Source: Petroclostridium sp. X23
Lineage (GTDB): Bacteria; Bacillota; Clostridia; SK-Y3
NCBI RefSeq assembly: GCF_030013905.1
Contig: NZ_CP124862.1
Location: forward strand, 3,475,051 to 3,539,050
Reading direction: 5' to 3'
Length of the DNA: 64,000 bases
Of the stretch, positions 4,914 to 29,253 are shown piece after piece (position 1 is the first letter of the stretch; every line of letters starts with the position of its first letter). The notes under the pieces are model-generated. The model ran no database searches and had not been told where the DNA came from. It saw only the letters and a program-made list of their open reading frames with translations. The position numbers and the translations under genes are program-made.

Positions 4914-5042
4914 CATCAAATATTTACATTTCTGTTAAAGTGGTTGCGAAATATATCATATTAATGTAAAATATTTAAAGAATTAAAATAATGGGGTTTT
5001 TGAGTGCTGTGTATTTGGTACTGATAGAACATGGAGGGTAAT

Positions 5043-7175
5043 ATGGGAAAACGTAGAAAAAATGCAGTTCAAGTGCAAAGCGGGAATCACGAAATGATGA
5101 AATGGATCCTGCTGAGTATTACTTCAGCTCTTATTGCGCTGCCTCCTTTTTTCAGGGGATTGTTTTTTGAAGAAGAACAGTTTGTTGTATATATAATATC
5201 TTTTATTTCTTTTATAGCGCTTTTGACATACAAGGCGATAAAAAAAGAACGCCTTGCTTTAAATACATATCTTGATTATACATTGATAGGTTTAGTCATA
5301 GCATATACTATTTCTGCAGCGGGTGCCGTCAATACAAGATTAGCAATAGCAGAAGTATTAAAGTACTTTAACTATCTGGTAATCTATTTCTTAGTAAAAG
5401 AGCTTATTCATGAAAGTAAATATGTGAAACTAATACTAAGCATTATTTTAGGAAGTATCACAACGGTAGCGTTTATCGGATTAGGAGCTGCGGCAGGCAC
5501 ATTTAAATATGATGGCGCTTATTCATTGGCGGAAAATGAAAAATGGATCAATTCTACGATACAATACCATAATGCTTTTGCAGCCTTAGTACTATGTGGA
5601 CTGCTTCTTTGCTATGTTCTATATACTGTATATAAGAATATGTGGGTAAAAAGTATCATAAGCATATCTGGGTTTATGCTTTTATTTGGCTTTATTTTTT
5701 CTTATTCTCGAGGTGCATGGGTTCTGCTTCCTATATTTATATTCATTCTAATGATTGCCGCGTGGAAATATATTTTGATGGATATGATAGCGCTAAGCAT
5801 AAGTCTTATCGTACCTACAGTGATTAGTGCCCAGGGGTTCCGTGCAGCTACACTGTTAAGAGACCAATCATCTTCATGGAAGTGGCTGGTTATTGGTTTT
5901 GCTGTATGTATAATAGTGAATTTATTAATGCAGTATATAATAAATGTTTGTAAGAAAAGGATGGGCAAATTAATCGGTAATTATAAGATAATCATTATTT
6001 CATTAATTGGAGTATTGACTTTAGGTGGTATTATTGCATTTTTATTTGCACCAAACATTCTTGCTAAAATCCTTCCACAGGATCTTCTCAGCAGATTACA
6101 AGGTATAAATTTTTCTACCGGAACAGTAAGAGAGAGATTTGTATTTTACTTTGATGCTTTTGAAATTGTTAAAGATTATCCGGTACTTGGCGGTGGAGGC
6201 GGTGCGTGGGAAAGTCTATATTTCATGTATCAGTCCTATTTATACTGGTCAAATCAAGCGCACAGCTACATTATGCAGGTATGGGTAGAAACGGGTACCA
6301 TAGGATTCATTATATATATCGGAACAATATTGGCTTTCTTGATAGAATCAGTAAGGTGTTTAAGAAAACATATGAAAGAGCAAGAAGATTACTTGCTATT
6401 AATCGGTATATTTACTGCTGCAGGAAGTCTAGTTGCGCATAGCTTCATTGATTTTGATTTATCCTTAAGTGCGATATCCATTATACTATGGACTTTGTTT
6501 GCACTGATAGGAGTATATGCATCACAAAAGGACGAGAGTCACAAGCTAAATAAAGAACTCCCTATACGCTATGGGATAATACCCACAATAGTACTATTCA
6601 TAACTGTATGTACATTTGCCGTTGCAAGTGATTATGCGCGAAAAGGTGTCCGCTATGGGGAAGCCAAGCGGTTGACAGAAGCTGCGGTATTGTTTCGTTC
6701 AGCTGTTAACTTTGATCCCCTAATGGCATCCTATAGAATAGACTACGCAAACACGCTGTTTGACTCTTACGTGAAGGATAATAAAATACCACGAGAGGTT
6801 ATGGATGAAGCGAAGAAGCAAGCAGAAAAGTCTCTTAGTTTAGATAAATATAATGCTGACCGGCATGCACGTGCGGGAGCGTTTTACTTTAAAATCGGAG
6901 AAATTGACCGGGCGCTTGAACTGTTCGATAAGTCGGTACAGCTTCAGCCTCTAAGACCGGAGAACTACCAGCAGAAAGCACATGCATATTTACAGGCTGC
7001 GCAATATTATTTAAATAAAAAGGACAATGATAAAGCGAAAGAGCTGGTACAAGAAGTAATAAGCATTGAAGAACAAATAGAGCAGCTTAACGCAATAAAG
7101 CTTAAACCGGTAACATTAAATAGTGAGACAGGGAAAATGATCGAACAGGCCAAAGAGCTATTGGAAAAATTGTAA
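5043..7175 (+). CDS. O-antigen ligase-like polytopic membrane protein with C-terminal TPRs
   Basis: About 710 residues. The first roughly 530 form about twelve hydrophobic segments containing a Wzy_C (O-antigen ligase/polymerase) region: FSYSRGAWVLLP, then a large external loop with GGGGGAWES and QAHSYIMQVWVETG. The last roughly 170 residues are soluble and contain TPR-like helices (AGAFYFKIGEIDRALELFDKSVQLQP). Family members join lipid-linked glycans to an acceptor or polymerise repeat units at the outer face of the membrane. Here it heads the glycan locus and may be its ligase. ATG 5043 has GGAGG correctly spaced; ATG 5031 would overlap that site. Ligase and polymerase cannot be separated by sequence. 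A paralogue begins at 63308. Confidence 0.8.
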   Translation: MGKRRKNAVQVQSGNHEMMKWILLSITSALIALPPFFRGLFFEEEQFVVYIISFISFIALLTYKAIKKERLALNTYLDYTLIGLVIAYTISAAGAVNTRLAIAEVLKYFNYLVIYFLVKELIHESKYVKLILSIILGSITTVAFIGLGAAAGTFKYDGAYSLAENEKWINSTIQYHNAFAALVLCGLLLCYVLYTVYKNMWVKSIISISGFMLLFGFIFSYSRGAWVLLPIFIFILMIAAWKYILMDMIALSISLIVPTVISAQGFRAATLLRDQSSSWKWLVIGFAVCIIVNLLMQYIINVCKKRMGKLIGNYKIIIISLIGVLTLGGIIAFLFAPNILAKILPQDLLSRLQGINFSTGTVRERFVFYFDAFEIVKDYPVLGGGGGAWESLYFMYQSYLYWSNQAHSYIMQVWVETGTIGFIIYIGTILAFLIESVRCLRKHMKEQEDYLLLIGIFTAAGSLVAHSFIDFDLSLSAISIILWTLFALIGVYASQKDESHKLNKELPIRYGIIPTIVLFITVCTFAVASDYARKGVRYGEAKRLTEAAVLFRSAVNFDPLMASYRIDYANTLFDSYVKDNKIPREVMDEAKKQAEKSLSLDKYNADRHARAGAFYFKIGEIDRALELFDKSVQLQPLRPENYQQKAHAYLQAAQYYLNKKDNDKAKELVQEVISIEEQIEQLNAIKLKPVTLNSETGKMIEQAKELLEKL

Positions 7176-7188
7176 AATGAGGTGTGAT

Positions 7189-8028
7189 ATGAGAGTATTG
7201 ATAACCGGAGCTAAAGGAATGTTAGGAACGGATTTGGCAGAAGTACTGCAAGACACACATGAGGTTATAGGTGTAGACATGGATAACTTTGATATTACTA
7301 ATATCAAAGAGACTGTTGAGAATATTAATGAATTACGACCTGATATCGTAATTCATTGTGCGGCATACACCAATGTAGATGGCTGTGAAAGTGAGATGGA
7401 GCTGGCGTATAAGGTAAATGCATTAGGGCCCCGTAATGTAGCAGTCGCATGTAATGAGATAAATGCCGCGATGGTACATATCAGTACAGACTATGTTTTC
7501 GATGGGACAAAGGGAGCAAGCTATATAGAAGACGATGCAACAAATGCATTAAGTGTATATGGAAAGTGTAAGTTGGCAGGAGAAAATTATGTTCGAACTG
7601 TATTAAATAAGCACTACATTGTCCGGACTCAGTGGTTGTACGGCAAGAACGGAAAGAACTTTGTGAAGACGATGGTAAACTTATCGAAAGAGCGGGATGA
7701 GATCAGAGTGGTAAATGACCAGTTTGGCAGCCCGACGTATACCTTAGACCTAGCTTATGCTATCAAAGAGCTGATACAGACGCCTGCTTACGGTATCTAT
7801 CACATAACGAACAGTGGCGTTGTATCATGGTATGAATTTACTAAAGATATCTTGGAATTAGCTGGTGCACAGGGTGTCAATGTAGTACCTATTACAACCG
7901 AAGAAATAGACCGTCCCGCACCAAGGCCAAAGTATTCGCCATTAGAAAACTTTTACTGGAAGCTTAATGGGCATGAACAATTAAGAAGTTATAAACAAGC
8001 TTTGGCGGATTATTTAGAAGAAATATAA
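7189..8028 (+). CDS. rfbD: dTDP-4-dehydrorhamnose reductase
   Basis: Last step of dTDP-L-rhamnose synthesis: NAD(P)H-dependent reduction of dTDP-4-dehydrorhamnose. It is an extended short-chain dehydrogenase with TGAKGMLG at the N-terminus (nucleotide binding), ISTDYVFDG, and the catalytic Tyr/Lys in YGKCK. Length of 279 residues is normal. ATG 7189 has TGAGGTG upstream; the in-frame ATG 7177 overlaps the end of the ligase gene and lacks a site. It is first of the four rhamnose genes (D-A-C-B), closely packed and co-directional. Confidence 0.93.
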
Positions 8029-8053
8029 TTCTATAAGAGATGAGGTTGAGCAA

Positions 8054-8923
8054 ATGAAAGGAATTATTCTAGCTGGAGGCGCCGGAACCAGGCTTTATCC
8101 GATTACCAAGCCAGTTTCAAAACAAATATTACCGATTTATGATAAACCAATGATTTATTATCCGCTGTCAATTCTGATGCTGGCTGGAATTAGAGAAGTG
8201 CTGATTATCTCTACTCCTAGGGATATTGGGTTATTTAAAGAATTGTTTGGGGATGGTTCGCATATAGGTCTTTCTATGTCATATGCCGTACAGGACAAGC
8301 CAAGAGGACTGGCCGATGCATTTATTGTAGGAGAAGAATTTATTGGAGACGATAAAGTTTGCCTTGTACTAGGTGACAACGTTTTCTATGGACAAAGCTT
8401 TGGTCGTATATTAGAAAATGCTGCAAAAAGAGATGAGGGCGCAACCATCTTCGGCTATTATGTTAAAGACCCTACTGCTTATGGTGTTGTTCAAGTTGAT
8501 GAAAATGGTAATGCCATATCCATAGAAGAGAAGCCTCAACAGCCAAAGTCCCATTATGCAGTGCCTGGCTTGTATTTCTATGATAATAATGTGGTACAGA
8601 TAGCGAAGACAATTAAACCTTCTGCTAGAGGAGAATTGGAAATCACGACAGTGAATGAAGAGTATATGAAGCAGGGTAAATTAAAGGTAGAACTTCTTGG
8701 AAGAGGAATGGCATGGCTGGATACCGGAACTCATGATGCATTACTAGAGGCGGGTAACTTTGTAGAAGCTATACAAAAAAGGCAAGGGCTTTATGTCTCA
8801 TGTATCGAAGAAATTGCGTATAGAAAAGGTTACATCACAAAAGAACAGCTTCTTGAGCTTGCTGAACCTTTAAGCAAAACGGAATATGGACAGTACTTAT
8901 TAAGTGTAGCGGAAGGACTGTAA
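8054..8923 (+). CDS. rfbA: Glucose-1-phosphate thymidylyltransferase
   Basis: First step of dTDP-rhamnose synthesis, making dTDP-glucose from dTTP and glucose-1-phosphate. The N-terminal [17 protein letters not shown] nucleotidyltransferase signature, [10 protein letters not shown] metal-binding aspartate, and [19 protein letters not shown] segments are all present. At 289 residues it is the standard homotetrameric RmlA type, subject in the family to feedback inhibition by dTDP-rhamnose. GATGAGGTTGAG precedes ATG 8054. It sits 25 bases after rfbD and 3 bases before the start of rfbC. Confidence 0.96.
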
Positions 8924-8926
8924 GGA

Positions 8927-9496
8927 GTGGGTAAATTTAAGTTTTTAGAAACAGGAATAAAAGATTTATATGTAGTGGAACCTACAGTATTTGATGATCA
9001 TAGAGGTTTCTTCATGGAGACGTATCATGCACAAGAGTTTAAAGAAGCCGGGCTTGATATGGTATTTGCGCAAGATAATCAGTCACGTTCATCTAGGGGT
9101 GTACTCAGGGGACTACATTTCCAGTATAATTATCCTCAAGGGAAATTGGTAAGAGTAATTAAAGGTGAAGTATTTGATGTTGCGGTAGATCTACGAAAAG
9201 ACTCTGAGACATTTGGAAAATGGTACGGATTATATCTATCTGAAGAAAATAAAAAGCAATTTTATGTTCCTGAAGGTTTTGCCCATGGTTTTCTTGTTAC
9301 TTCCGATGTAGCTGAGTTTGTTTATAAGTGTACAGACTACTATCATCCGAAAGATGAGGGAGGAATCATTTGGAATGACCCAAATGTAGGAATAGAATGG
9401 CCTTTAGATAAAGTAGCAAGTATACTTCTTTCAGCAAAAGATGAGAAGTGGAAAACATTAAAAGAAACTGAGGCCAACTTTTATATAAATAAATGA
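8927..9496 (+). CDS. rfbC: dTDP-4-dehydrorhamnose 3,5-epimerase
   Basis: Third step of the rhamnose pathway, a double epimerisation in a cupin (jelly-roll) homodimer. DHRGFFMET, then SRGVLRGLHFQ with the catalytic histidine, and VPEGFAHGF are family landmarks; 189 residues is usual. The start is GTG 8927, supported by the conserved GKFKFLETGIKDL N-terminus. The nearest ribosome site is GGAAGGA at 8911-8917, inside the end of rfbA, so translation may be coupled. Confidence 0.95.
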   Translation: MGKFKFLETGIKDLYVVEPTVFDDHRGFFMETYHAQEFKEAGLDMVFAQDNQSRSSRGVLRGLHFQYNYPQGKLVRVIKGEVFDVAVDLRKDSETFGKWYGLYLSEENKKQFYVPEGFAHGFLVTSDVAEFVYKCTDYYHPKDEGGIIWNDPNVGIEWPLDKVASILLSAKDEKWKTLKETEANFYINK

Positions 9497-9505
9497 GGTG
9501 GAAGA

Positions 9506-10528
9506 ATGTTAAAATTATTAGTAACAGGTGGAGCTGGATTTATAGGTGGAAATTTTATTCACTATATGCTCAATAAGTATAAAGATTCCCAAATTATCTG
9601 TGTTGATGCTCTAACATACGCTGGAAATATGGAAACTTTAGAAGCAGTTTTAGAAAATCCAAGCTTTAAATTTATCAAAGCGGATATTTCAGATAGAGAA
9701 ATAATTTATAAAGTTTTTGAAGAAGAGAAACCAAATATTATCGTAAATTTTGCAGCAGAGAGCCATGTTGACCGTTCTATAGAAAGCCCGTCTGTATTTT
9801 TGCAGACCAATGTAATGGGTACACAGGTGCTCTTAGATGCTTGTAGAAAATATGGAATAGACCGTTACCATCAAGTATCTACTGATGAAGTTTATGGTGA
9901 TTTGCCTCTTGATAGACCGGATTTATTTTTCACGGAAGATACTCCTATTCATACTTCAAGTCCTTATTCAGCATCTAAGGCAGCGGCAGATTTACTGGTA
10001 CAGGCATATCATAGAACTTTTAAATTGCCTGTGACAATTTCGCGATGCTCAAATAATTATGGTCCGTATCACTTCCCCGAAAAGCTAATCCCATTAATGA
10101 TAGCTAATGCGCTAAACAACAAACATTTGCCTGTTTATGGAAAGGGTGAAAATGTACGTGATTGGCTGTATGTAGAAGATCATTGTTCTGCAATTGATTT
10201 AATAATTCACAAGGGCAGAATTGGAGAAGTCTATAACATTGGTGGACATAATGAAAGAACTAATTTAGAAGTAGTAAAGACAATTATTAGAGAACTTGGA
10301 AAAAATGAAGGCTTAATTAAATTTGTAAAAGACAGAGCAGGACACGATTTGCGATATGCCATTGATCCTACAAAGATTCATAATGAGCTTGGTTGGCTTC
10401 CTCAGACTACTTTTGATGAGGGTATAAAAAAGACTATACAATGGTATTTAGATAATAGAAAGTGGTGGGAAAATATTATAAATGAAGAGTATAAAAACTA
10501 TTACGAAAAAATGTATGGAAGGAGATAA
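9506..10528 (+). CDS. rfbB: dTDP-glucose 4,6-dehydratase
   Basis: Second step of dTDP-rhamnose synthesis, an NAD-dependent extended SDR. It has TGGAGFIGGNFI at the N-terminus, FAAESHVDRSI, VSTDEVYGDL with the catalytic Asp-Glu pair in the T-D-E motif, and YSASKAAAD with the catalytic Tyr-Lys. Length of 340 is normal. GAGGTGG precedes ATG 9506. It is the last of the rhamnose genes; the DNA becomes markedly more AT-rich after it, and a 200-base gap separates it from the exporter genes. Confidence 0.96.
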   Translation: MLKLLVTGGAGFIGGNFIHYMLNKYKDSQIICVDALTYAGNMETLEAVLENPSFKFIKADISDREIIYKVFEEEKPNIIVNFAAESHVDRSIESPSVFLQTNVMGTQVLLDACRKYGIDRYHQVSTDEVYGDLPLDRPDLFFTEDTPIHTSSPYSASKAAADLLVQAYHRTFKLPVTISRCSNNYGPYHFPEKLIPLMIANALNNKHLPVYGKGENVRDWLYVEDHCSAIDLIIHKGRIGEVYNIGGHNERTNLEVVKTIIRELGKNEGLIKFVKDRAGHDLRYAIDPTKIHNELGWLPQTTFDEGIKKTIQWYLDNRKWWENIINEEYKNYYEKMYGRR

Positions 10529-10728: not shown

Positions 10729-11538
10729 ATGACATATATTAATGGTTTTTATACTTTTATCCTAAACATTGTAAAAAATAAGCAAACTTTGTTATTACTT
10801 GCAAGAAATGATTTTAAAGCGAAATTTGCATCTTCTTTGTTTGGAATAGTATGGGCTTTTATACAGCCTCTCGTTACTATATTTGTATTATGGTTTGTAT
10901 TCGAGGTGGGTTTTAAAAATCCACCTATAAATAATGTGCCTTTTGTAGTTTGGTTTATACCGGCTTTTTTACCGTGGTCATATTTTTCGGAGGCATTAAT
11001 CTCTGTGACAAATTCTTTAATAGAATATAAGTATTTGGTAACAAAAGTAAACTTTCGAATAAGTGCTATTCCAGTGGTTAAAATTATTTCGTCAAGTTTT
11101 GTTCATATAGGATTTATCTTATTTATTTTTGTTGTATGTAGAATATATGGTTTTAGTATATCTATGTATAATTTTCAAGTTATTTATTATTTTATATGTA
11201 CGGTGATACTTCTGGTTGGTTTGGGCTGGCTTTTATCATCTTTAGCTGTATTTATACCAGATATATTAAATATAGTATCTGTTTTTATACAAATAGGATT
11301 TTGGATAACGCCAATTTTTTGGTCGCCTGATAACATGTCACAATTTGTACAAAGTATTTTAAAAATTAATCCTATGTTTTATATATGTAGAGGGTATAGA
11401 GATAGCTTTATTGATAATGTTTGGTTTTGGGAAAGAGGTTTTACTAACTTATACTTTTGGGGTATAGTCATAATTATTTTTGTGATAGGAGCCCTAGTTT
11501 TTAAAAGGCTTAGGCCACATTTTGCAGATGTATTATAA
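10729..11538 (+). CDS. ABC-2 type polysaccharide export permease (Wzm/TagG-like)
   Basis: A 269-residue membrane protein with about six hydrophobic helices and the ABC-2 polysaccharide exporter layout (FGIVWAFIQPLVTIFVLWFV, then a cytoplasmic gap with the coupling segment, and FWITPIFWSP near the fifth helix). It pairs with the ATPase 15 bases downstream to move a lipid-linked glycan to the outer face of the membrane. GAGGAG lies upstream of ATG 10729. Wzm (O-antigen) and TagG (teichoic acid) types cannot be separated by this subunit alone; the tailed ATPase and the rhamnose genes favour a glycan of O-antigen or S-layer type. Confidence 0.88.
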   Translation: MTYINGFYTFILNIVKNKQTLLLLARNDFKAKFASSLFGIVWAFIQPLVTIFVLWFVFEVGFKNPPINNVPFVVWFIPAFLPWSYFSEALISVTNSLIEYKYLVTKVNFRISAIPVVKIISSSFVHIGFILFIFVVCRIYGFSISMYNFQVIYYFICTVILLVGLGWLLSSLAVFIPDILNIVSVFIQIGFWITPIFWSPDNMSQFVQSILKINPMFYICRGYRDSFIDNVWFWERGFTNLYFWGIVIIIFVIGALVFKRLRPHFADVL

Positions 11539-11553
11539 TAGGAGAATTGTGAA

Positions 11554-12849
11554 ATGAAATGTAATATTGCAATACAAGCAGAGCATGTATCTAAAGTATA
11601 TAAATTATATAATAAGCCATTAGATAGGCTAAAAGAATCTTTAAGTTTAACAAGAAAACAATATCATGAGAATTACTATGCGTTAAACGATGTTAGCTTT
11701 AAGATTAAAAAAGGTGATACAGTAGGAGTTATAGGAGCTAATGGAGCAGGAAAATCTACGTTACTAAAAATACTTACAGGTGTAACGACGCCCACTAATG
11801 GCGATATATTTATTAATGGTAAAGTGTCAGCATTATTAGAATTAGGTACAGGATTTAATCCTGAATATACAGGATTGGAAAATATATATTTAAATGGAGC
11901 CATGATGGGATTAAGCAGGAAAGCGATGAGTGATAAAGTACAAAGTATTATTGATTTTGCTGATATTGGAGAGTTTATAAGGCAGCCTGTAAAAAGCTAC
12001 TCAAGTGGTATGTTTGCTCGACTTGCGTTTGCAGTCGCAATTAATGTAGAGCCTGATATTTTAATTGTAGATGAGGCTTTAAGTGTTGGGGATATATTTT
12101 TTCAAAATAAGTGCTTTAGAAAGTTTGAGGAACTTAAGGAGAAGAACACTACAGTACTCTATGTATCTCATGACCTTGCCAGCATAAAAGAAATGTGTGA
12201 TAAAACGATTTGGCTTGAAAAAGGGAAATTAAAAATGTATGGTGAGAATTTGGAAGTATGTAATGAGTATAGTAACAATTTACTCAAGGAAAAAAGCCAA
12301 TTTCATAAAATATATTCTACAGATCATCTAGAATCAAAAAATTATGATATTCTTTCTATGGATAAGCAAAATTATCCTAATATAAAATATACAAATGATA
12401 GTGTAGTAACAGAGGATGTTCAAATAATTTCATGTTTTATTACGAATAATAAAGGAGAAATAAGAGATATATTTTATGCAGGTGAAAAATGTACTTTAAG
12501 TATTATATTTGAAAGTAATAGAGATATAAAAAAATGCATTGCAGGTTTTGCTTTAGCGACGAATAAAGGTATGTGGATTATAAACCCAAATACATTGATT
12601 GTTGATGGAAAAAGGAGTTTTAATGTAAAAAGCGGAACAATCAATAAAGTAGATTTTAGTTTTAGCATGCCAAAATTAATAGGCGGCGATTATATTATTG
12701 AGGTAGCGATTGCTGATGGGATTATGGAGAATTATGAAACATTGGCATGGTTATATAATGTATTAAATATAAAAATTATAAATGAAGGATATCATTATGC
12801 ATTGTTGGATGTAGATGCTAAAGTAAAAATTTATCAAATGCAAAAGTAG
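11554..12849 (+). CDS. Polysaccharide export ATPase with glycan-binding C-terminal domain (Wzt-like)
   Basis: Residues 1 to about 240 are the nucleotide-binding domain: Walker A GANGAGKST (about 61-69), signature SYSSGMFARLAFA, Walker B ILIVDEALSVGD and switch YVSHD. Residues about 285-425 form a beta-rich domain matching Wzt_C in outline (VQIISCFITNN, CTLSIIFESN, GGDYIIEVAIADG). In E. coli O9a this jelly-roll domain recognises the methyl/phosphate cap on the finished chain before export. The presence of methyltransferase genes immediately downstream fits the same logic. At 431 residues it is far longer than TagH-like ATPases lacking the tail. Confidence 0.9.
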   Translation: MKCNIAIQAEHVSKVYKLYNKPLDRLKESLSLTRKQYHENYYALNDVSFKIKKGDTVGVIGANGAGKSTLLKILTGVTTPTNGDIFINGKVSALLELGTGFNPEYTGLENIYLNGAMMGLSRKAMSDKVQSIIDFADIGEFIRQPVKSYSSGMFARLAFAVAINVEPDILIVDEALSVGDIFFQNKCFRKFEELKEKNTTVLYVSHDLASIKEMCDKTIWLEKGKLKMYGENLEVCNEYSNNLLKEKSQFHKIYSTDHLESKNYDILSMDKQNYPNIKYTNDSVVTEDVQIISCFITNNKGEIRDIFYAGEKCTLSIIFESNRDIKKCIAGFALATNKGMWIINPNTLIVDGKRSFNVKSGTINKVDFSFSMPKLIGGDYIIEVAIADGIMENYETLAWLYNVLNIKIINEGYHYALLDVDAKVKIYQMQK

Positions 12850-12865
12850 ATAGGACGGTTATGAT

Positions 12866-13486
12866 ATGCACAAAAGTTCTCTTTTGAATATGGAAAGATT
12901 CATTAATAAATATCTTGATAAGAATAAGAATCTAAAAATATTAGATGTAGGAAGCCAGACAGTACCTGAAGATATCATGGGATCGTATAAGGTGTTTTTT
13001 AAAAATGATAAAGCAAAATGGGATTATTATGGGTGCGATATGGTTGCTGGCAATAATGTTGATATTGTTCTAAAAAATGTATACAATTGGAGAGAAATAG
13101 AATCTAATTCATATGACGTGATAATTAGTGGCCAGGCATTGGAACATGTAGAATTTTTTTGGTTAACTTTTTTAGAGATCAAAAGAGTATTAAAGCATGA
13201 AGGGCTGTGCTGTATTATTGTACCATCATCGGGTTACGAGCATAAGTATCCCTTAGATTGCTATAGATATTTTTCAGATGGATTAAGAGCGATTGCAAAA
13301 TATGTAGGATTGGACGTAGTAGAAATTTATACACAGTCAGATATTAATGAACATCCTGATATGGATGAGATATGGAAAGACAGTGTTTTGATTTGTAGAA
13401 AACCTAACAAAAATCTTTTAAAAGATGTGAAGTTTTTTATAAAATCTAGCCTTATTAAATTTGCATCGCGAGGGGCAACAAAGTGA
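12866..13486 (+). CDS. SAM-dependent methyltransferase (type 11)
   Basis: A 206-residue class I methyltransferase. The SAM-binding motif I is ILDVGSQTVP (about 28-37), the acidic loop is YYGCDMV, and motif IV/post-I reads SYDVIISGQALEHVEFFW, followed by RVLKHEGLCCIIVPSSG. It probably methylates a sugar or glycan intermediate given its position between the tailed Wzt-like ATPase and another methyltransferase. The substrate cannot be read from sequence. Its last four bases overlap the start of the next gene (GTGA overlap), so the two are translationally coupled. Confidence 0.8.
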   Translation: MHKSSLLNMERFINKYLDKNKNLKILDVGSQTVPEDIMGSYKVFFKNDKAKWDYYGCDMVAGNNVDIVLKNVYNWREIESNSYDVIISGQALEHVEFFWLTFLEIKRVLKHEGLCCIIVPSSGYEHKYPLDCYRYFSDGLRAIAKYVGLDVVEIYTQSDINEHPDMDEIWKDSVLICRKPNKNLLKDVKFFIKSSLIKFASRGATK

Positions 13487-15123
13487 ATAGATATGAAACT
13501 AATATAGATTTCGATAAAGATAGTACACTAACTTGTATTTTAAAACAAATTAAAAAAAATTCTACTGTTCTTGAATTTGGTCCTGCAACGGGATATATGA
13601 CAAAATATTTGAAGCAAGAGTTAAACTGTAATGTATATATAGTAGAAGTAGAAAAAAAAGCATTTTCTCATGCGATACAATATGCTGATGGCGGCCTACT
13701 GGGGGATATAGAAGGTTATGCTTGGAAAGAAAAGTTTAAGCAAATAAAGTTTGATTACATTTGTTTTGCCGATGTGCTTGAACATTTAAGGAATCCTCGT
13801 GAAGTAGTACAGGAAAGTTTGACATTGCTAAAAGATGATGGTAGATTATTTGTTTCTATACCTAATATAGCGCATAATGCAATTATAATCAATTTAATAA
13901 ATAATAAATTTGAATATAAAAAAACAGGATTATTAGATGATACCCATATACATTTTTTTACAAAGCATTCATTGGATCAGCTATTAGAAAGTAGCGATAT
14001 GGTTGTTGAAAAAGAGGAAGCGATTTATAATAATGTTGAGGATACAGAGTTTAACATATCATTTGCAGATGTGGAAGGAAATGTAGCAGAGGCGCTTCAA
14101 AATAGAAGGTTTGCAAATGTATATCAATATGTTTTTTCAGCTATAAAACGTAGTTATTATGAAAAAAATAAAAACAATATTATTCTTATGAGAAATATAA
14201 GAGAGTATAGCAGATTATATAGTACTGCTTTATATCTGGATATAGGTGAAGGATTTAAAGAAACAGAAAAAAAAATTCAGTGCTATTACTATAATAAAAA
14301 TAATACTTTTACAGTGCGTTTTAATATTGATAAAGAAAATGTTAAGGTTCTTCGTTTTGATCCATGTGAATTTCCATGTAAAATAGAAGATTTTAAAATT
14401 ACCTCTAATATTGAGGGTATAAAAGTCAATAAATATAATATAGCATATTGTAAAGATAATATTGATGTGTTTATGAATAGTGATCCTATTTATATTTTAG
14501 AATGTGATGATTTTACAGGCATTAAAGAGATAGAAATTAGCGGTAGTATACAAAAAATTACATTTGAAGAATTGGAAGAATATTATTTAGAGGAAAACAA
14601 GAGAATCTCTAGCGAAGCAACTATTAATATATACAAGTTAAACAAAACAATAAGTCAATTGAGCAAGCATATACAAGAGAAGCAAGGTGAAATTAACCAA
14701 GCAATAGAAGAAATCAAGAAAAAAGATTTTGAAATAAACCGGTTGAATAATCACATAGAGGAAAAGCAAGGTGAAATTGATCAAGTAATAGAAAAAATCA
14801 AGAAAAGAGATTTTGAAATAAACCGGTTGAATAATCACATAGAGGAAAAGCAAGATGAAATTAATGGAGCGATAGAAGAAATCAAGGCAAGAGATTTTGA
14901 AATAAGTCGGTTGAATAAACATATAAGGGATAAGCAAGACGAAGTTCATTGCGCAATAGAAGAAATTAAATATAAAGATTCTTTTATTGAAAGTTTAGAT
15001 AAAATCTTGGAAGAAAAAGATAATAGGATCGAGGAAATAAGTAAACAATTAGATTTTATAAAAAATTCTATTAGTTATAAAATCACAAAACCCTTTCGGT
15101 GGGTAAAAAAAATATTTAAATAG
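13483..15123 (+). CDS. Methyltransferase with C-terminal repeated coiled coil and amphipathic tail (WbdD/WsaE-like logic)
   Basis: 546 residues in three parts. Residues about 18-180 are a class I methyltransferase (VLEFGPATGYMT motif I, CFADVLEHLRNPREVV motif IV). Residues about 230-370 are a beta-rich segment not recognised. Residues about 386-530 are a charged coiled coil containing four 28-residue repeats (396-507). The protein ends with SISYKITKPFRWVKKIFK, a basic amphipathic helix common at ends of glycan enzymes. In E. coli WbdD a capping enzyme is followed by a coiled-coil ruler and a membrane-binding helix; the layout here is the same without a kinase domain. GTG start, with AGGGG upstream. 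Function as a chain capper is inferred. Confidence 0.75.
   Translation: MNRYETNIDFDKDSTLTCILKQIKKNSTVLEFGPATGYMTKYLKQELNCNVYIVEVEKKAFSHAIQYADGGLLGDIEGYAWKEKFKQIKFDYICFADVLEHLRNPREVVQESLTLLKDDGRLFVSIPNIAHNAIIINLINNKFEYKKTGLLDDTHIHFFTKHSLDQLLESSDMVVEKEEAIYNNVEDTEFNISFADVEGNVAEALQNRRFANVYQYVFSAIKRSYYEKNKNNIILMRNIREYSRLYSTALYLDIGEGFKETEKKIQCYYYNKNNTFTVRFNIDKENVKVLRFDPCEFPCKIEDFKITSNIEGIKVNKYNIAYCKDNIDVFMNSDPIYILECDDFTGIKEIEISGSIQKITFEELEEYYLEENKRISSEATINIYKLNKTISQLSKHIQEKQGEINQAIEEIKKKDFEINRLNNHIEEKQGEIDQVIEKIKKRDFEINRLNNHIEEKQDEINGAIEEIKARDFEISRLNKHIRDKQDEVHCAIEEIKYKDSFIESLDKILEEKDNRIEEISKQLDFIKNSISYKITKPFRWVKKIFK
14668..15003 (+). repeat. Four in-frame 84-bp tandem repeats encoding the coiled coil
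   Basis: Units at 14668-14751, 14752-14835, 14836-14919 and 14920-15003 share the exact 84-base period. Units 2 and 3 are nearly identical; unit 4 has diverged most. Each encodes 28 residues (four heptads) of the form HIEEKQxEIxxxIExIKxR followed by DFEIxRLNN. Repeat gain or loss would keep the frame and change coil length in 28-residue steps. Confidence 0.95.
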
Positions 15124-15137: not shown

Positions 15138-17984
15138 ATGGGGTTAATGGGGAAATTACATGTAATAAAAGTAGCATATAAAAATATAGAAAACAAACAT
15201 TTGATATTTAAAAAAGTTCTCTATGCATTAAAAAATGGCGGATTGGTTGGCTTAAAGAATAAAATTTTAAATGTGAGCAACAAAGCAGAAAATACTACTG
15301 CAGGTACAATAGATATCTATGAGATGCAACAGTCCGAGGAAAAACAGGAATTTAACGTAAATACAAAACTAACAGTAGTTATTGATATTAAAGGTCTAAA
15401 TGTGTGCATTAGAGGAACTCTTAATAGTTTGAAAGAGCAGAGTTATCAAAAGTTTAATATTGCTGTGATGGCACCTAAAGGTTATCAGATACCCCAACAA
15501 ATATCAAAAGAAATTAGAACATATTATTTTGATGATAATGTGAGAGACGTAGTAAATAACGTACTTGCAGAAGCAGAAAATGAATATCTTTTATTTATAA
15601 ATGGCGGAAATGTTCTCTCACCAGATGCTTTGATATATTTTGCGAAAGAAATGGAAAATACGGGAAGTGACTTGGCTTATTGTGATGAATGTTTATTTGA
15701 CGGTGAAAACGGAAGAAAAATTAAGTATTTTATAAAACCAGACTTTTCTTGTTATGATTTGTATAATAGTCTTTATATAGGACAGGGGGTTTCCTTTTCT
15801 AAATTTGCTTTAGAAAAGGTTGGGGGATTTGATGAAAAGCTGAAAACTTTTAGTGGAAGAATAAGTGATGCAGTATTAAAAGTTGCAAGTATATCATCCA
15901 ATATCACTCATATTGAAAGGGTATTGCTACTAAGAAACAGCTATACTGAAGAGGATATTGTGTTAGAAAACAGCAGTATAGTCAAAAAATCATTGCAAAG
16001 AATGGGCTTTAAATTAAGCGTGGTACCGAAACAAAGAAGCTTTAGCCTACATGCTTTAGAAAAAAATGGAAAGGTATCAATTATTATTCCTACTGACGAC
16101 TATAAAAAAGTGCTTGTGTGTATAGAACATATTTTATTAAATACACAGTATGCCGTATATGAAATTATTATTGTATCTACGAATCAAATATGTTCAAAGC
16201 TTCAAAAATACTTTGCATATGCAGACAGTATTAAATATGTTACTTATGAAGAAGAATTTAACTATAGTAAGAAGTGTAATTTAGGAGCAAAAAATGCAGA
16301 AGGAGAGTTTTTTGTTTTTTTGCATGATTATATTATTACTGAACAAAAAACTTGGCTATGTAATATGATTAATTGCTTTGTATTTTCAAATGTAGGAGGA
16401 GTATCTCCAAAGATTTTGAGAAGTGACAATACTATACGTTATGCAGGTATTATTTCAGGTGGATTTGGATTTTTTTCTTTACCTTTTAATGGAGAACCGA
16501 ATACTTTGGTGGAAAGTTTTAGTGAACCTGTATTTACGAATAGACAGATTTCTGTTCTTTCAGCCACTTGTCTTGCTGTAAGAAAGTCTACTTTTGATAA
16601 AACAGATGGATTCAATGAATATGAAACAAAAGAGAAATTCAGTAATGCTGCATTTTCTTTTGAGATACAAAAACAGGGTTTATATTGTGTGTACTGTTCA
16701 GAATCTGAAGTATATGCGAACGGCGGCAATTGGTATGATAGTTGGTTTGAAAGAGAGAGCAAGACAGCCTATATTTATATGCTAAAAAATTATGGAGAAT
16801 TTTTAAGTCATGATCCGTATTTTACGGATAGTATGAGATATGTCATGCTCAAAAATGTTCCAATAGATTATAAAGTTTTTGCAAAAAACAGTAGTAAAAA
16901 ATCTGCTAAGAGTGTATTATTAATTTCTCACGAATTATCTATAACAGGAGCTCCAGTAGCGCTCAGCTATGCTGCAAAGGCATTACATGATAATGGGTAT
17001 TATACAAGTGTATTATCTCCATACGATGGAAGAATGAGAGAAGAAATATCAAAAGAAGGTATTAGTGTCATAATAAATTCATCAATAAACGGAGGAGAGT
17101 TTTGGCTAAAGTTTGCAGAAAACTTTGATTTAATTGTTGTTAGTACATTGGTACAATATCATAGTATAATTCAGCTTGAGAAACTTAATATTCCTGTAAT
17201 GTGGTGGGTACATGAGGCACAAGATAGCTATGAAAGAGGAGCTAAAGACCTAATTCCGCATACAGTATCTGAAAATGTACATATTTACTGTGGCGGTGGG
17301 TATGCGAGACGCATGATGAATAAATATAGACCTAAATATCAGCCAAAAGAACTGCTTTATTATGTGCCTGACTATTCAACAGGGATTAAAAAAGATTATG
17401 GTTATAAGTTAGAGAACATTGAAGGAAAATTTGTTTTTGCAACTATAGGTACTATAGAATGGCGTAAAGGTCAGGATATTTTCGCAAGAGCAATTAAAGA
17501 GATGCCGTATGAGTATGTTAAGAAGTGCCAATTTTTGTTTATTGGAAGGAATATAGACCAAGATATTTATAATAAGGTTATAGAAGTGAAAGAACTGTAT
17601 CCGAAAAATGTATCTTTAATTAGAGAAGTTTCAAGAGATGAAATTAGAGATATTTATAATCAATGTACTGCGATAGTTTGTGCCTCTCGAGATGATCCTA
17701 TGCCTATCTTTATGACAGAGTGTTTAATGCTTTCAAAAATTGCAATTTGTTCTGAGAATACAGGGACTGCGGATCTATTAATAGATGGCGTAAATGGATT
17801 TATCTATCATAATAATGATTATAAAGAGTTAATGGAAAAAATTAAGTGTGTCATAGATAACGAGCAAAAGCTTACGCAAATAAAAATTGAAGGCAGAAGA
17901 ACATATGAAAAACATTTCTCTGTTGATGTATTTAATGATAATATACTAAAAATTACTAACGAATTATTAAGCGGAGATAGTTAA
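15138..17984 (+). CDS. Three-module glycosyltransferase (GT2-GT2-GT4)
   Basis: 948 residues. After a short linker (ALKNGGLVGLKNKI) comes a GT2-like module (about 72-290), a second GT2-like module (about 310-560, starting KVSIIIPTDDYKK) and a C-terminal GT4 module (about 590-945; SHELSITGAPVALSYAAKAL, then IGTIEWRKGQDIF and the donor-site region TECLMLSKIA). Both GT2 modules lack the usual acidic metal site: the first reads LLFINGGNVL where DxD-type residues are normal, the second FLHDYIIT. The GT4 part looks intact. It lies 14 bases after the coiled-coil methyltransferase and probably acts in the same complex. Donor and acceptor are unknown. Confidence 0.8.
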   Translation: MGLMGKLHVIKVAYKNIENKHLIFKKVLYALKNGGLVGLKNKILNVSNKAENTTAGTIDIYEMQQSEEKQEFNVNTKLTVVIDIKGLNVCIRGTLNSLKEQSYQKFNIAVMAPKGYQIPQQISKEIRTYYFDDNVRDVVNNVLAEAENEYLLFINGGNVLSPDALIYFAKEMENTGSDLAYCDECLFDGENGRKIKYFIKPDFSCYDLYNSLYIGQGVSFSKFALEKVGGFDEKLKTFSGRISDAVLKVASISSNITHIERVLLLRNSYTEEDIVLENSSIVKKSLQRMGFKLSVVPKQRSFSLHALEKNGKVSIIIPTDDYKKVLVCIEHILLNTQYAVYEIIIVSTNQICSKLQKYFAYADSIKYVTYEEEFNYSKKCNLGAKNAEGEFFVFLHDYIITEQKTWLCNMINCFVFSNVGGVSPKILRSDNTIRYAGIISGGFGFFSLPFNGEPNTLVESFSEPVFTNRQISVLSATCLAVRKSTFDKTDGFNEYETKEKFSNAAFSFEIQKQGLYCVYCSESEVYANGGNWYDSWFERESKTAYIYMLKNYGEFLSHDPYFTDSMRYVMLKNVPIDYKVFAKNSSKKSAKSVLLISHELSITGAPVALSYAAKALHDNGYYTSVLSPYDGRMREEISKEGISVIINSSINGGEFWLKFAENFDLIVVSTLVQYHSIIQLEKLNIPVMWWVHEAQDSYERGAKDLIPHTVSENVHIYCGGGYARRMMNKYRPKYQPKELLYYVPDYSTGIKKDYGYKLENIEGKFVFATIGTIEWRKGQDIFARAIKEMPYEYVKKCQFLFIGRNIDQDIYNKVIEVKELYPKNVSLIREVSRDEIRDIYNQCTAIVCASRDDPMPIFMTECLMLSKIAICSENTGTADLLIDGVNGFIYHNNDYKELMEKIKCVIDNEQKLTQIKIEGRRTYEKHFSVDVFNDNILKITNELLSGDS

Positions 17985-19652
17985 ATGAATGAGAATATGT
18001 ATAGATTTAAAAACATTGTAATACAAGAGAACAATAACGTAAAGGATGTATATGGTCACAACTTTTTTCACAAAAACAATAGAGAATTTTTAGGTGGAGA
18101 TGATAACTCGCTTTTTATTGCTTTTACAAAAGATAAATATAAATATATTAAAATCACACACAAAATAAAGAGTGACATCGACGGCCTACGGTTTAAGTTA
18201 TACTATGCATTGTTACCGGAAAATGCATTCTGTGAAGAACAATCTTTTGAGCTTGGTTTTATGGATGGAGAGGAATATACGTATATATTAAGACTAAAAA
18301 ACAAAAGTGATGCTTTTCGTTTTGATTTTGGTTTTAAACCCATTAACTTTAAATTTCAAAAGTTTAAAATTCAAAAACCAACTATTTTTGAAGTAATAAA
18401 AAAAATGAGTGTAAGTGCTCTTAAGAATTATAGAAATGTAATAAGATATATTTCTAATAATCATATTAATCTAGGTAAAATTCTGAGAAAAATAAAGGAA
18501 GTAGGTTTGATTGAAGCGGTTCAAGGTGCGAAAGAAAAAGCGGCACTTGCAATAAAAGAGGGTGCAGCCGATAAAACAATCCAGCAAGTGGTTGAGCCTT
18601 ATCAAGTAACAATTAAGCAAGAGCTTGAACCTAATAGAAAAAAAATACTCCATTTTATCGAAAATTTCTATACAGGAGGTTCATCACGTTTGATCATTGA
18701 TATTATTGAGTATTATGGTCATAAATATGATAATAAAATTTTTACCATGGCATATCGTGGGAAAGAAGAATTTCTAGGTGTTGAAGTAGAAGTAGTTGAT
18801 GTTAATAATAAAAAAGATGTGCTTAAAAAAATTAAGGAGTATAATCCTGATATTATTCATGTTCATATCTGGGAAGGTGAGTGGTATCATAAAGTCTTTA
18901 GTTTGCTGCAAGAAGTTAACAGTATTAAGATGATAGAAAATATAAATACTCCGATAGAGCCTATTTTAAGAGAATATGTTGATAAATATGTATTTGTAAG
19001 CAACTATGTTTTAGAAAACTTTCATAAAAAAGATGATAGCAAAAGCATGGTTATTTATCCCGGATCTAATTTTCATATGTTTACTAGAAAGTTAGAGGGA
19101 GAATACCTGGCAAAAGATACTATTGGCATGGTATATCGGTTAGGATATGATAAATTAAATCAATATTCCATAGATGTATTTATTAAAACAGTAAAGAAAA
19201 GACCTCAGACAAAGGCAATTATTGTTGGCGGAGGGCCACAATATGAGTATTATGTGGACAAAGTAAAAAGAGCAGGAGTTTTCAAAAATTTCATATTTAC
19301 TGGATATGTGCCGTATAACTCCTTGCCAAGTTGGTATGAAAAATTCACTATATTTGTAGCTCCAGTTTGGAAAGAAAGCTTTGGACAAGTTTCACCATTT
19401 GCTATGAGTATGGGTATGCCTGTCGCAGGATATGATATTGGTGCACTAAGTGAAATTATTGGCACTAGCGAAGTACTTGCGCCTTCGGATGATTCAGACA
19501 AGCTTTCAGACATCTTGGTGCAGTTGCTTAATGATTATGAAAGATGTAAAGAAATTGGAAGGTTTAATCAAAAGCGTGCTTGGGATAACTTTGGTGTTGA
19601 AACAATGGTAGATGCTTATGATAAAGTGTATAATGAACTACTAGAGAGGTAG
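17985..19652 (+). CDS. GT4-family glycosyltransferase with novel N-terminal domain
   Basis: 555 residues. Residues about 215-555 form a GT-B, GT4-type transferase: HFIENFYTGGSSRLIIDII, IIVGGGPQYEYYVDKV, FTGYVPYNSLPSWY and the donor loop ESFGQVSPFAMSMGMPV. Residues 1 to about 150 are a beta-rich module I do not recognise, possibly carbohydrate binding, followed by a basic linker (ILRKIKEVGLIEAVQ) resembling the linker in the gene before it. ATG 17985 directly follows the stop of the previous gene, with GCGGAGATAG as ribosome site, indicating coupled translation. Substrate unknown. Confidence 0.82.
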   Translation: MNENMYRFKNIVIQENNNVKDVYGHNFFHKNNREFLGGDDNSLFIAFTKDKYKYIKITHKIKSDIDGLRFKLYYALLPENAFCEEQSFELGFMDGEEYTYILRLKNKSDAFRFDFGFKPINFKFQKFKIQKPTIFEVIKKMSVSALKNYRNVIRYISNNHINLGKILRKIKEVGLIEAVQGAKEKAALAIKEGAADKTIQQVVEPYQVTIKQELEPNRKKILHFIENFYTGGSSRLIIDIIEYYGHKYDNKIFTMAYRGKEEFLGVEVEVVDVNNKKDVLKKIKEYNPDIIHVHIWEGEWYHKVFSLLQEVNSIKMIENINTPIEPILREYVDKYVFVSNYVLENFHKKDDSKSMVIYPGSNFHMFTRKLEGEYLAKDTIGMVYRLGYDKLNQYSIDVFIKTVKKRPQTKAIIVGGGPQYEYYVDKVKRAGVFKNFIFTGYVPYNSLPSWYEKFTIFVAPVWKESFGQVSPFAMSMGMPVAGYDIGALSEIIGTSEVLAPSDDSDKLSDILVQLLNDYERCKEIGRFNQKRAWDNFGVETMVDAYDKVYNELLER

Positions 19653-20597: not shown

Positions 20598-20745
20598 TAC
20601 TCTTTTATCACTAGTAATATTCGAATAAAAAAAGTTTTAATGGACATAACTAAAAAACTCTTAATGCTATAGAATTATTTCAATTACTGGAATAGTTATA
20701 ATGATTATAATATACCAGTTCATACGAAAAGGAGATACTATTATA

Positions 20746-21804: not shown

Positions 21805-22016
21805 GAAGGTAATACTGTATAACGAGCTGACAGAGATTTGTTAAAACAAATAGATTTATAGTAAGTATTTTTATACATATTAATTATTTAATTAAGTATT
21901 GATGAAAATGTATTGTGTACAAATCAATAAGAATGGAATGCAAAAATAGAATAATAACTGGAGTTGAGGAAGTATTAAAAGTATATAAATCAAGTTATGA
22001 AAAAAGGAGATGTATT

Positions 22017-27849: not shown

Positions 27850-29253
27850 ATGATTAAGCAGAATCAAAGGTTCCTTAATGGGATGCTTGTTGTTTTTGAT
27901 ATGTTGGCTTTTCTTCTTTCGTATGGGATTGCTTGGTTCATAAAATTTCAAAGCGGATTATTTCCACTTGAATCTCATCTTAGTTTTATTATATATGCTG
28001 AAGTATTGTTGTTTACTTTGCCTTGTCTCCTAGCAATTCAATATCTTCACGAACTATATATGCCTCAAAGGACAAAGCATCTATATATAGAGATACTAAA
28101 TATTATAAAGAGCAATTTTTCACTTTTTATTCTAATAATGAGTGTGTTGTATATAGCGAAGCAGATACATATCTCACGTATGTTCATTGCATTATTAATC
28201 ATTTTTAATATAGCTCTATCTGCTATGGAGAGAGCGTCGGTAAGAATAGCACTGAGAAACATTAGAGCAAAAGGGTATAATATCAAATATGTTTTTGTGG
28301 TAGGTGGCGGACAGCTCGGCAGAAACTACTTGAAGGCAATTTATCGCAACAGATATCTAGGATATGTTGCATTGGGAATTTTTGATGATAGTGAAGTGAA
28401 ACAGGGCAAGAAAATAGTAAATACAAGAGTAATCGGACAAATAGGTGATTTGGAGAATGCGCTGCAGCAACATCATGTGGATGAAGTTATTATCGCACTG
28501 CCCATACAAGCGTATGACCGGTTGAAGGGCATTATTAATATCTGTGAGAAGTCCGGAGTTAAGACGCTGATCATACCGGATTATATAAGGTATATGCCTG
28601 CCCGGCCTCATTTTGATGAGATTGAAGATATTCCGCTAATTAATACCAGGTATGTTCCGCTAGATAACATTGGAAACCGCATGATTAAAAGAGCCTTTGA
28701 TATTATCACTGCAGCAAGCATGATGATTGTCTTTGGTCCGATTATGTTGGTAATCACTGCTGTTATTAAGATTTCTTCTCCGGGTCCTGTTATATTTAAG
28801 CAGGAACGAATAGGTTTTAATAGAAGGCCTTTTGTGATGTATAAATTCAGAACAATGAAAAACCAAAAGAAAGAGCAATCTGATACAACATGGACTACTA
28901 AAGAAGATGACCGTAAAACAAAATTCGGTGAATTTCTTAGAGCAACAAGCCTTGATGAGTTACCCCAGATATTTAATGTGTTGAAGGGAGATATGAGCAT
29001 CATAGGTCCGAGACCGGAACGCCCATATTTTGTGGATCAATTTAAAGAGAAAATTCCTAAATATATGATAAAACACCATGTGCGTCCTGGCTTAACCGGA
29101 TGGGCCCAAGTAAACGGATGGCGAGGGGATACCTCTATAAAAGAGCGAATCAAGCATGATATTTACTATATAGAAAATTGGAGTTTAATGTTTGACATAC
29201 GGATACTATGGCTTACAGTATTTAAAGGCTTTATAAACAAAAATGCATACTAA
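27850..29253 (+). CDS. Undecaprenyl-phosphate sugar phosphotransferase (WcaJ/WbaP-like)
   Basis: 467 residues. Four to five N-terminal membrane helices, a Rossmann-like middle part (VFVVGGGQLGRNYLKAI, about 143-260), then the catalytic bacterial sugar-transferase domain (about 275-467): KRAFDIITAA, SPGPVIFKQERIG, MYKFRTMKN, DELPQIFNVLKGDMSIIGPR. It moves a sugar-1-phosphate from UDP-sugar to undecaprenyl phosphate, starting glycan synthesis on the inner face of the membrane. Glucose or galactose are the usual sugars; specificity cannot be read. GAGAGGGGG precedes ATG 27850. It is the last gene of the locus and faces galU. Confidence 0.93.
   Translation: MIKQNQRFLNGMLVVFDMLAFLLSYGIAWFIKFQSGLFPLESHLSFIIYAEVLLFTLPCLLAIQYLHELYMPQRTKHLYIEILNIIKSNFSLFILIMSVLYIAKQIHISRMFIALLIIFNIALSAMERASVRIALRNIRAKGYNIKYVFVVGGGQLGRNYLKAIYRNRYLGYVALGIFDDSEVKQGKKIVNTRVIGQIGDLENALQQHHVDEVIIALPIQAYDRLKGIINICEKSGVKTLIIPDYIRYMPARPHFDEIEDIPLINTRYVPLDNIGNRMIKRAFDIITAASMMIVFGPIMLVITAVIKISSPGPVIFKQERIGFNRRPFVMYKFRTMKNQKKEQSDTTWTTKEDDRKTKFGEFLRATSLDELPQIFNVLKGDMSIIGPRPERPYFVDQFKEKIPKYMIKHHVRPGLTGWAQVNGWRGDTSIKERIKHDIYYIENWSLMFDIRILWLTVFKGFINKNAY

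Follow-up and report, generated by a model that had tools for sequence, protein, structure and literature searches.

Capping of a growing glycan by methylation and measurement of its length by a protein arm are both already known, the former in a Gram-positive bacterium through WsaE of Geobacillus (PMC2943079) and the latter as the arm-ruler design of Gram-negative O-antigens. Dependence of chain length on the coil is established for WbdD of E. coli O9a (PMC5082667, PMC11231755), and WbdD of E. coli O8 is a methyltransferase only, without a kinase (PMC3482155). The slg cluster of Geobacillus stearothermophilus encodes WsaE, Wzm, Wzt, WsaP and WsaB; the N-terminal methyltransferase of WsaE adds a 2-O-methyl cap, which Wzt is predicted to bind (PMC2943079). 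A 2010 review of S-layer glycans noted that methylation by WsaE is independent of length in vitro and that a further length-determining factor is probably needed (PMC2943079). In the Wzt of Aquifex, Trp362 stacks on the methyl cap and the tail binds 3-O-methyl sugars (PMC9445017). No report of a length-measuring arm in Gram-positive bacteria was found in the literature. The locus described here lies in a window of 64,000 nucleotides, the whole stretch of DNA analysed, from Petroclostridium sp. X23, and probably serves a polymerase-terminator, ABC-transporter-dependent glycan pathway in which a methyltransferase-coil protein (MTCC) caps the chain, its coil sets a minimum length, and the tail of Wzt licenses export.

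The locus and its host

Four open reading frames occupy positions 10729-15123 with spacings of 15, 16 and -4 nt (Table 1), and the observation of this gene set is confirmed. The original prediction had named an ABC-2 permease, an ATPase with a Wzt_C-like tail, a methyltransferase and a second methyltransferase carried on a coil. These assignments hold, given matches to PF01061 and to PF14524 (above its Pfam cut-off) for the transporter, a match to PF08241 for the small methyltransferase, and a match to PF13489 together with an AlphaFold helix over residues 378-527 for the coil-borne one.

Table 1. Features of the Petroclostridium glycan locus (positions in the window)
Feature	Position	Strand	Evidence
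Wzy_C ligase-like membrane protein with TPR tail, candidate glycan-protein ligase	5031..7175	+	PF04932, E 5e-8; TPR
rfbDACB, dTDP-L-rhamnose synthesis, directly upstream of Wzm	7177..10528	+	ORFs
Wzm, ABC-2 glycan permease, 269 aa	10729..11538	+	ABC2_membrane PF01061, E 4.8e-16
Wzt, ATPase with C-terminal carbohydrate-binding tail, 431 aa	11554..12849	+	PF00005 (ABC_tran); PF14524 (Wzt_C)
Wzt_C tail, aa 286-412, within Wzt	12409..12789	+	PF14524; Aquifex Wzt alignment
Small SAM methyltransferase, 206 aa	12866..13486	+	Methyltransf_11 PF08241, E 2e-7
MTCC, proposed chain terminator/ruler, 546 aa, GTG start	13483..15123	+	Pfam, AlphaFold, family alignments
MTCC methyltransferase domain, ~aa 15-190, motif LEFGPATG	13525..14052	+	Methyltransf_23 PF13489, E 9e-20
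MTCC β-sandwich, ~aa 245-358	14215..14556	+	AlphaFold pLDDT mostly >90 (91-98)
MTCC coiled-coil helix, continuous, aa 378-527, ~22 nm	14614..15063	+	AlphaFold, heptad power test
84-nt (28-residue, four-heptad) tandem repeat, 3.4 copies	14680..14966	+	Tandem Repeats Finder score 399, 86% matches
Basic amphipathic C-terminal helix of MTCC, aa 530-545, within ISYKITKPFRWVKKIFK	15070..15117	+	AlphaFold, amphipathy test
Two multidomain glycosyltransferases, 948 + 555 aa, candidate polymerase	15138..19652	+	Pfam
Undecaprenyl-phosphate glucose phosphotransferase (WcaJ/WbaP type), candidate initiator	27850..29253	+	TIGR03023, 501 bits, above cut-off

Homologues of rfbDACB also flank relatives of MTCC, and in many Paenibacillus loci a Wzy_C/TPR homologue lies next to Wzm and divergent to it. 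The 948-aa glycosyltransferase has no solved relative at E 1e-10; a β domain in the 555-aa enzyme is weakly suggested (hhalign probability 33%), and in locus L058 the counterpart of the latter is fused to an MTCC relative. Because neither LpxC nor Omp85 was found in the genome, in searches that detected their positive controls, the host is probably a monoderm bacterium, and an LPS-bearing diderm host is rejected on the same grounds. Proteins with SLH repeats are abundant, with 82 such repeats genome-wide.

The small methyltransferase had been counted among the parts of the system, but it is not a regular one. It has a clear match in the equivalent slot in one other genome only (L058, 55% identity; L058 and L106 are one contig and hence one genome). 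Judged by this distribution it appears to be an accessory, dispensable in nearly all relatives, and possibly serves internal methylation of the glycan.

The methyltransferase-coil protein and its relatives

MTCC consists, in order, of a methyltransferase, a β-sandwich, a single 150-residue helix and a basic amphipathic end. The original prediction had foreseen all of these except the β-sandwich, which it overlooked. The methyltransferase domain matches 3cc8 both in sequence (E 1.8e-19) and in predicted fold (Foldseek E 6e-17), and its residues E31, G33, G37, D97, E100, H101, D152 and H155 are invariant across 52 sequences. A kinase concealed in the middle of the protein is rejected, as AlphaFold models the stretch separating methyltransferase from coil as an all-β sandwich; nor is the missing kinase the departure from WbdD for which it had been taken, given the kinase-free O8 enzyme. 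The β-sandwich itself has no confident PDB match (best Foldseek E 0.02, TM <0.32). It is a mobile module, with HMM matches in other glycan-assembly proteins and, in many relatives, a copy between two transmembrane helices of the permease.

The predicted repetition of the coil and the basic character of its end are both borne out. Hydrophobic periodicity at 3.5 residues reaches 246, compared with 12±12 in shuffled sequences (0 of 5000 as high), and neighbouring 28-residue units are 74-89% identical. The C-terminal helix carries a net charge of +6 and an amphipathic moment of 0.69, matched by 0.5% of shuffles; in sequence and model alike, the end thus appears to have features of the amphipathic, membrane-binding type. 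Among stand-alone members of the family, 20 of 24 have a C-terminal net charge of at least +3.

Searched as a single sequence against genome contigs, MTCC gave no matches; a profile built on four relatives gave 116, and none was found in E. coli genomes. Dozens of genomes of Bacillota (Paenibacillus, Aneurinibacillus, Lachnospiraceae, Enterococcus) carry a coil-borne methyltransferase adjoining Wzm/Wzt. The family also occupies the equivalent slot in Campylobacterota, Legionella and Enterovibrio and is not confined to Gram-positive bacteria. In one locus (L164) the slot is taken by a protein with methyltransferase, kinase-like and β domains. Neighbourhoods were counted for 79 named relatives from Bacillota, Campylobacterota and others plus the MTCC of the window, of which a home-made coil scorer assigned a coil to 57 and none to 23. 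A Wzt lies at most two genes away from 48 of the 57 coil-bearing proteins versus 8 of the 23 coil-less ones, and a tailed Wzt from 44 versus 7 (Fisher p 2e-4, shared ancestry ignored); nine coil-bearing relatives have no Wzt inside two genes.

These counts bear on whether MTCC caps at all. Its methyltransferase could instead modify internal residues or another substrate, and if it decorated internal sugars, the Wzt tail would read some other terminal feature or the repeat itself. Decorating methyltransferases are common in glycan clusters, a second one adjoins MTCC here, and methyltransferase-only relatives (L138, L140, L142 and others) sit in clusters without Wzt. We nevertheless consider such decoration quite unlikely, as coil-bearing members are strongly tied to tailed Wzt, the nearest solved Wzt tail binds a methyl cap (PMC9445017), and fusion to a coil with a basic end marks terminators (PMC11231755).

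Whether the coil measures length is a separate matter. MTCC might cap and the Wzt tail read the cap while the coil acts as a scaffold for terminator, polymerase and transporter at the membrane, length then following from how fast polymerisation runs relative to capping. Direct fusion of the MT-β-coil module to glycosyltransferases is frequent among the relatives (L058, L059, Enterococcus loci), and the motif SxSW[RK]xTxPxR, which recurs at the ends of coils in MTCC relatives, also occurs in glycosyltransferases that have no methyltransferase (L027, L068). Some relatives have coils as short as 33-52 residues, and capping by WsaE is, as noted above, indifferent to length in vitro. Against this stand the precedent of O9a WbdD and the behaviour of the coil itself. 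In stand-alone relatives the coil, at 105±46 residues, is far more variable in length than the N-terminal part, at 381±14, and its make-up of 28-residue units in tandem is likewise what a spacer would be expected to show. In one pair (L079 and L090) the N-terminal parts are 55% identical and the coils span 87 and 183 residues. We consider the scaffold reading unlikely.

The transporter

Wzm is 39-52% identical to the Wzm adjoining those MTCC relatives that were examined in detail. The Wzt_C match in Wzt is strong (E 1.6e-21, 77 bits against a cut-off of 30.4), and the closest PDB match of the protein, over its full length, is Aquifex Wzt (8dku, E 4e-81). In the alignment of the two tails, Trp399 (12748-12750) falls opposite Aquifex Trp362. 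Of 52 scanned Wzt proteins adjoining MTCC relatives, 47 carry the tail and a few do not. The methyl-stacking position is aromatic (W/Y/F) in all 47 tailed proteins, although an aromatic residue there may be general to Wzt_C, and 52 of 52 retain a Tyr or Phe where contact with the NBD is probable. The rest of the Aquifex methyl pocket is kept in part: its Ala is conserved (as Ala, Gly or Cys among the relatives), the other pocket residues vary, and the cap-contacting His is not kept. The predicted cap-reading tail is a true Wzt_C with an aromatic residue at the stacking position.

Could the exporter instead be of the teichoic-acid TagGH type, with a precursor of wall teichoic acid as the substrate of MTCC? 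In favour are a host that is probably Gram-positive and the ATPase domain of Wzt, which matches TarH/TagH structures and scores high against TagH models. Yet no curated TagH cut-off is reached (281 of 538 bits for PRK13545; 240 of 320 bits), the tail match points elsewhere, and the neighbours are rhamnose synthesis, multidomain glycosyltransferases and a ligase-like protein; we regard this possibility as very improbable.

A proposed pathway and its counterparts

The putative capping enzyme, coil ruler, membrane end and cap-reading Wzt of the original prediction are supported by the computational tests run, on sequences and predicted structures. Domain content, gene order, conservation, the properties of coil and tail, and the absence of LpxC and Omp85 were obtained directly; from these we infer where the chain is methylated, that MTCC caps it, measures it and binds the membrane, that Wzt recognises the cap, and what the acceptor is. 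In the favoured pathway the WcaJ-type enzyme would use undecaprenyl phosphate as the carrier on which the chain begins. Elongation at the membrane, by rhamnose among other sugars, would fall to the large glycosyltransferases. MTCC would dock on the membrane through its basic end, the 150-residue coil keeping its methyltransferase about 22 nm away, so that the non-reducing terminal sugar would be O-methylated only once the chain reached the enzyme, and growth would then stop. The Wzt tail would read the methylated end, Wzm/Wzt would export the chain, and the Wzy_C-type ligase would attach it at the surface, where S-layer protein or cell-wall material is the likeliest acceptor. The product is probably a rhamnose-containing surface glycan for S-layer or wall.

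The locus suggests that monoderms employ the polymerase-terminator strategy of O-antigens for glycans other than LPS, and the ruler idea can be tested through the 28-residue repeats. A bolder proposal, which we hold to be rather improbable, is that monoderms set surface-glycan length by an evolvable ruler of 28-residue units and that the β-sandwiches of the cytoplasmic terminator and of the permease inspect the chain on either side of the membrane. If true, such two-sided inspection would give glycan assembly a checkpoint for which no parallel is described in O-antigens.

Among known systems, Aquifex aeolicus provides the closest solved full-length Wzt and shares the aromatic stacker, although it is a diderm LPS system and its other pocket residues differ. 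E. coli O8 and Klebsiella O5 share the overall design, a kinase-free methyltransferase terminator with long coil and membrane-bound end and a Wzt tail that licenses capped chains (PMC3482155, PMC11231755); unlike their WbdD, MTCC has an extra β-sandwich and a monoderm-type host, and where their glycan is a mannan, a rhamnose-containing one is expected here. The likeness to O8 WbdD is by description, sequence kinship having been assessed against the solved O9a WbdD. WbdD was absent from the PDB matches of MTCC by phmmer (E up to 0.1), by profile (E up to 0.01) and among the top 50 Foldseek hits, so a common origin lacks sequence support in these searches. MTCC is therefore counted as an analogue of WbdD, sequence homology not being detectable, and its capping role is proposed by analogy for the same reason. 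Klebsiella O7 ORF6 (methyltransferase-kinase-CBM-coil-GT-GT), likewise compared by description, also carries a methyltransferase, an Ig-like β domain and a coil on a single polypeptide encoded beside Wzm/Wzt and rml genes (PMC11231755), and its glycosyltransferase fusion recurs in the MTCC relatives of L058 and L059; MTCC differs in having no kinase. Finally, the Geobacillus slg region gathers rml genes, Wzm/Wzt, a WbaP-type initiator and a ligase, and the window has the same set in one region, with the Wzy_C/TPR protein as candidate ligase. Unlike WsaE (methyltransferase-GT-GT), for which no coil ruler is described (PMC2943079), MTCC has no glycosyltransferase domain, although fused forms exist among its relatives. 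A coil-borne methyltransferase adjoining Wzm/Wzt is a direct candidate for the length factor postulated beside WsaE.

The gene cluster and its host

Four consecutive genes had been proposed to act together in glycan export, and all four reading frames are present at the positions of the original prediction, on the plus strand and almost abutting (table). They encode the permease Wzm, the ATPase Wzt, a small methyltransferase and MTCC, the 546-residue candidate chain terminator. The Wzt_C-like tail likewise proved to be a true Pfam match (residues 286-412, E 1.6e-21; score 77 bits, cut-off 30.4). Immediately upstream of the Wzm-Wzt-MTCC genes lies rfbDACB, and an epimerase and two multidomain glycosyltransferases lie downstream of MTCC. 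Acyltransferase_3, MBOAT and AlgX-like genes after the cluster may O-acylate the exported glycan. For the small methyltransferase, a clear same-slot counterpart was seen in only one other genome, a Thermincola MAG (L058 = L106; 55% identity).

Neither LpxC nor Omp85 was found in the complete 5.5-Mb genome by searches that were positive in control genomes, and 82 SLH repeats are present. The simplest reading is a monoderm host with an S-layer. The likely destination of the glycan is S-layer or wall, which parallels the slg clusters of Geobacillus and Paenibacillus (PMC2943079).

Features in the window and related loci
Feature	Location	Strand	Basis
Wzy_C ligase-like protein with TPRs	5031-7175		
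Wzm permease, ABC2_membrane	10729-11538	+	Pfam
Wzt, ABC_tran and Wzt_C	11554-12849	+	Pfam
Small methyltransferase, Methyltransf_11	12866-13486	+	Pfam
MTCC, Methyltransf_23 (E 9e-20), then coiled coil	13483-15123	+	Pfam
Coil-end motif	15070-15117; L027, L068, L088, L091, L098, L100, L103, L113, L116		
Acyltransferase_3, MBOAT, AlgX-like genes	20701-25010		
WcaJ-type initiating transferase	27850-29253		
733-aa protein	L164:10778-12979; same protein as L011:1318-3324		
Extended Wzm	L057:11393-12772; L075:7388-8764; L076:7350-8747; L082, L086, L089, L120		HMM
1787-aa protein	L027:6879-12242		
Second Wzt_C-like match, sub-threshold	G000:C1:3892029-3892334 (L002)		

Anatomy and relatives of MTCC

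The full-length AlphaFold model of MTCC (21-sequence alignment; mean pLDDT 85) comprises a methyltransferase (residues 15-190), a β-sandwich (245-358), a long uninterrupted helix (378-527) and a closing short helix (530-545). Modelled alone on 48 sequences, the β-sandwich reached pLDDT values mainly of 91-98; no confident match to it was found in the PDB. The repeated coiled coil expected here is borne out by both protein and DNA: the hydrophobic period is 3.48 residues, power at 3.5 residues is 246, a value that none of 5000 shuffles reached (12±12), and the coding DNA of the helix carries 84-nt units in tandem (3.4 copies, 86% matches), the second and third of which, as compared, show six codon differences, all nonsynonymous. 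By residue count the 150-residue helix would measure ~22 nm, close to the ~20 nm quoted for WbdD, the E. coli chain terminator (PMC5082667). The predicted basic amphipathic end was also recovered, the final 17 residues having a net charge of +6; their amphipathic moment is 0.69, a value reached by 0.5% of shuffles.

Searching named genomes with a four-sequence alignment yielded 116 relatives, 80 of which were kept, from Paenibacillus, Aneurinibacillus, Lachnospiraceae, Enterococcus and Desulfosporosinus as well as Campylobacterota, Legionella and Enterovibrio. As a rule, Wzm and Wzt lie directly upstream. With the window included, one duplicate removed and coils scored by a home-made scorer, a coil follows the β domain in 57 of 80 members. 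Wzt lies within two genes of 48/57 coil-bearing versus 8/23 coil-less members, and a tailed Wzt of 44/57 versus 7/23 (Fisher p 2e-4, uncorrected for shared ancestry); Wzt_C was found in 47 of the 52 Wzt scanned. Among stand-alone members the coil varies (105±46 residues) versus an N-terminal part of 381±14. L079 and L090, 55% identical in their N-terminal parts and identical in gene order, have coils of 87 versus 183 residues. The C-terminal net charge is at least +3 in 20 of 24 stand-alone members, and these ends frequently carry the motif SxSW[RK]xTxPxR. That motif closes the coils of many otherwise dissimilar proteins of glycan assembly, possibly as a module for membrane docking or joining. 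In the tree, many of whose deeper branches are weak, the window falls within Bacillota sequences next to a Campylobacterota group; its nearest named relatives are only ~42% identical over the N-terminal part.

Possible parallel terminators and the β domain elsewhere

In L058, L059 and Enterococcus the MTCC module is fused to glycosyltransferases, an arrangement also seen in Klebsiella O7 (PMC11231755). In L164, from a genome of the same class as the window, RfbB-RfbA-RfbC-Wzm-Wzt is followed by a 733-residue protein in the MTCC slot and then by glycosyltransferases, one of which opens with a coil-like stretch and carries the coil-end motif in variant form. This protein combines a methyltransferase, a middle region and the MTCC β domain (hhalign E 4e-11), and resembles Klebsiella O7 ORF6. 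The kinase-like motif DYDLIFSNIMVNGPIWTIIDYE is the single feature suggesting a kinase in the middle region; neither Pfam nor PDB gave a kinase match. The 733-residue protein looks like a possible Gram-positive terminator of the methyl-phosphate type.

Further, 13 of 56 Wzm exceed 400 residues, and in relatives from Paenibacillus and Lachnospiraceae, long Wzm have an N-terminal extension containing an MTCC-type β-sandwich (HMM E 3e-10 to 9e-4), probably extracellular because it is placed between two apparent transmembrane helices. On E. coli plasmid pKTa005_1, a 1787-residue protein adjoins Wzm and a Wzt with Wzt_C; from its start it comprises a sulfotransferase domain, a 14-residue-repeat coil ending SNSWRITKPLR, then WbsX, GT2 and GT4. 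The gene cysD lies nearby. A terminator capping with sulfate is conceivable.

Proposed mechanism and known capping systems

The nearest solved full-length match to the window Wzt is Aquifex Wzt (E 4e-81), whose tail binds 3-O-methyl-mannose with the methyl against Trp362, alongside Leu300, Thr346 and Ala348 (PMC9445017). Once the numbering is shifted by one residue, window Trp399 pairs with Trp362 and Ala385 with Ala348; Leu300, Thr346 and His350 are replaced. All 47 tailed Wzt have Y, W or F at the Trp399 position, and all 52 Wzt have Y or F at the position that probably corresponds to Tyr233, an NBD contact. The alignment thus fits a pocket stacking onto a methyl group; since the aromatic may be common to Wzt_C in general, its conservation falls short of proof. 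The second Wzt_C-like match lies ~2.3 kb from an SLH-repeat match.

Parts, gene order, conservation and the properties of coil and end are directly established. From these we infer that the coil would hold the methyltransferase away from the membrane as a ruler, that MTCC would O-methylate the terminal sugar of a chain long enough to reach it, that the Wzt tail would recognise the methylated end and trigger export, and that the Wzy_C-type protein would pass the chain to its acceptor. In O9a WbdD, coil length sets chain length (PMC5082667, PMC11231755), and export by Wzt with carbohydrate-binding tails needs capped ends (PMC3482155, PMC11231755).

The proposed WbdD counterpart stands as a likeness of working; membership of the WbdD family found no support, as no WbdD structure matched MTCC by sequence, by profile or in the top 50 folds. 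MTCC indeed has no kinase, as predicted, but this is no real departure because O8 WbdD, too, has a methyltransferase and no kinase (PMC3482155). Among Gram-positives the nearest precedent is the Geobacillus capping enzyme WsaE (methyltransferase-GT-GT); in its case, length was postulated to depend on a separate factor (PMC2943079). No description of a coiled-coil ruler in Gram-positives was found in the open-licence literature; the strategy itself has been termed widespread across the bacterial kingdom (PMC11231755).
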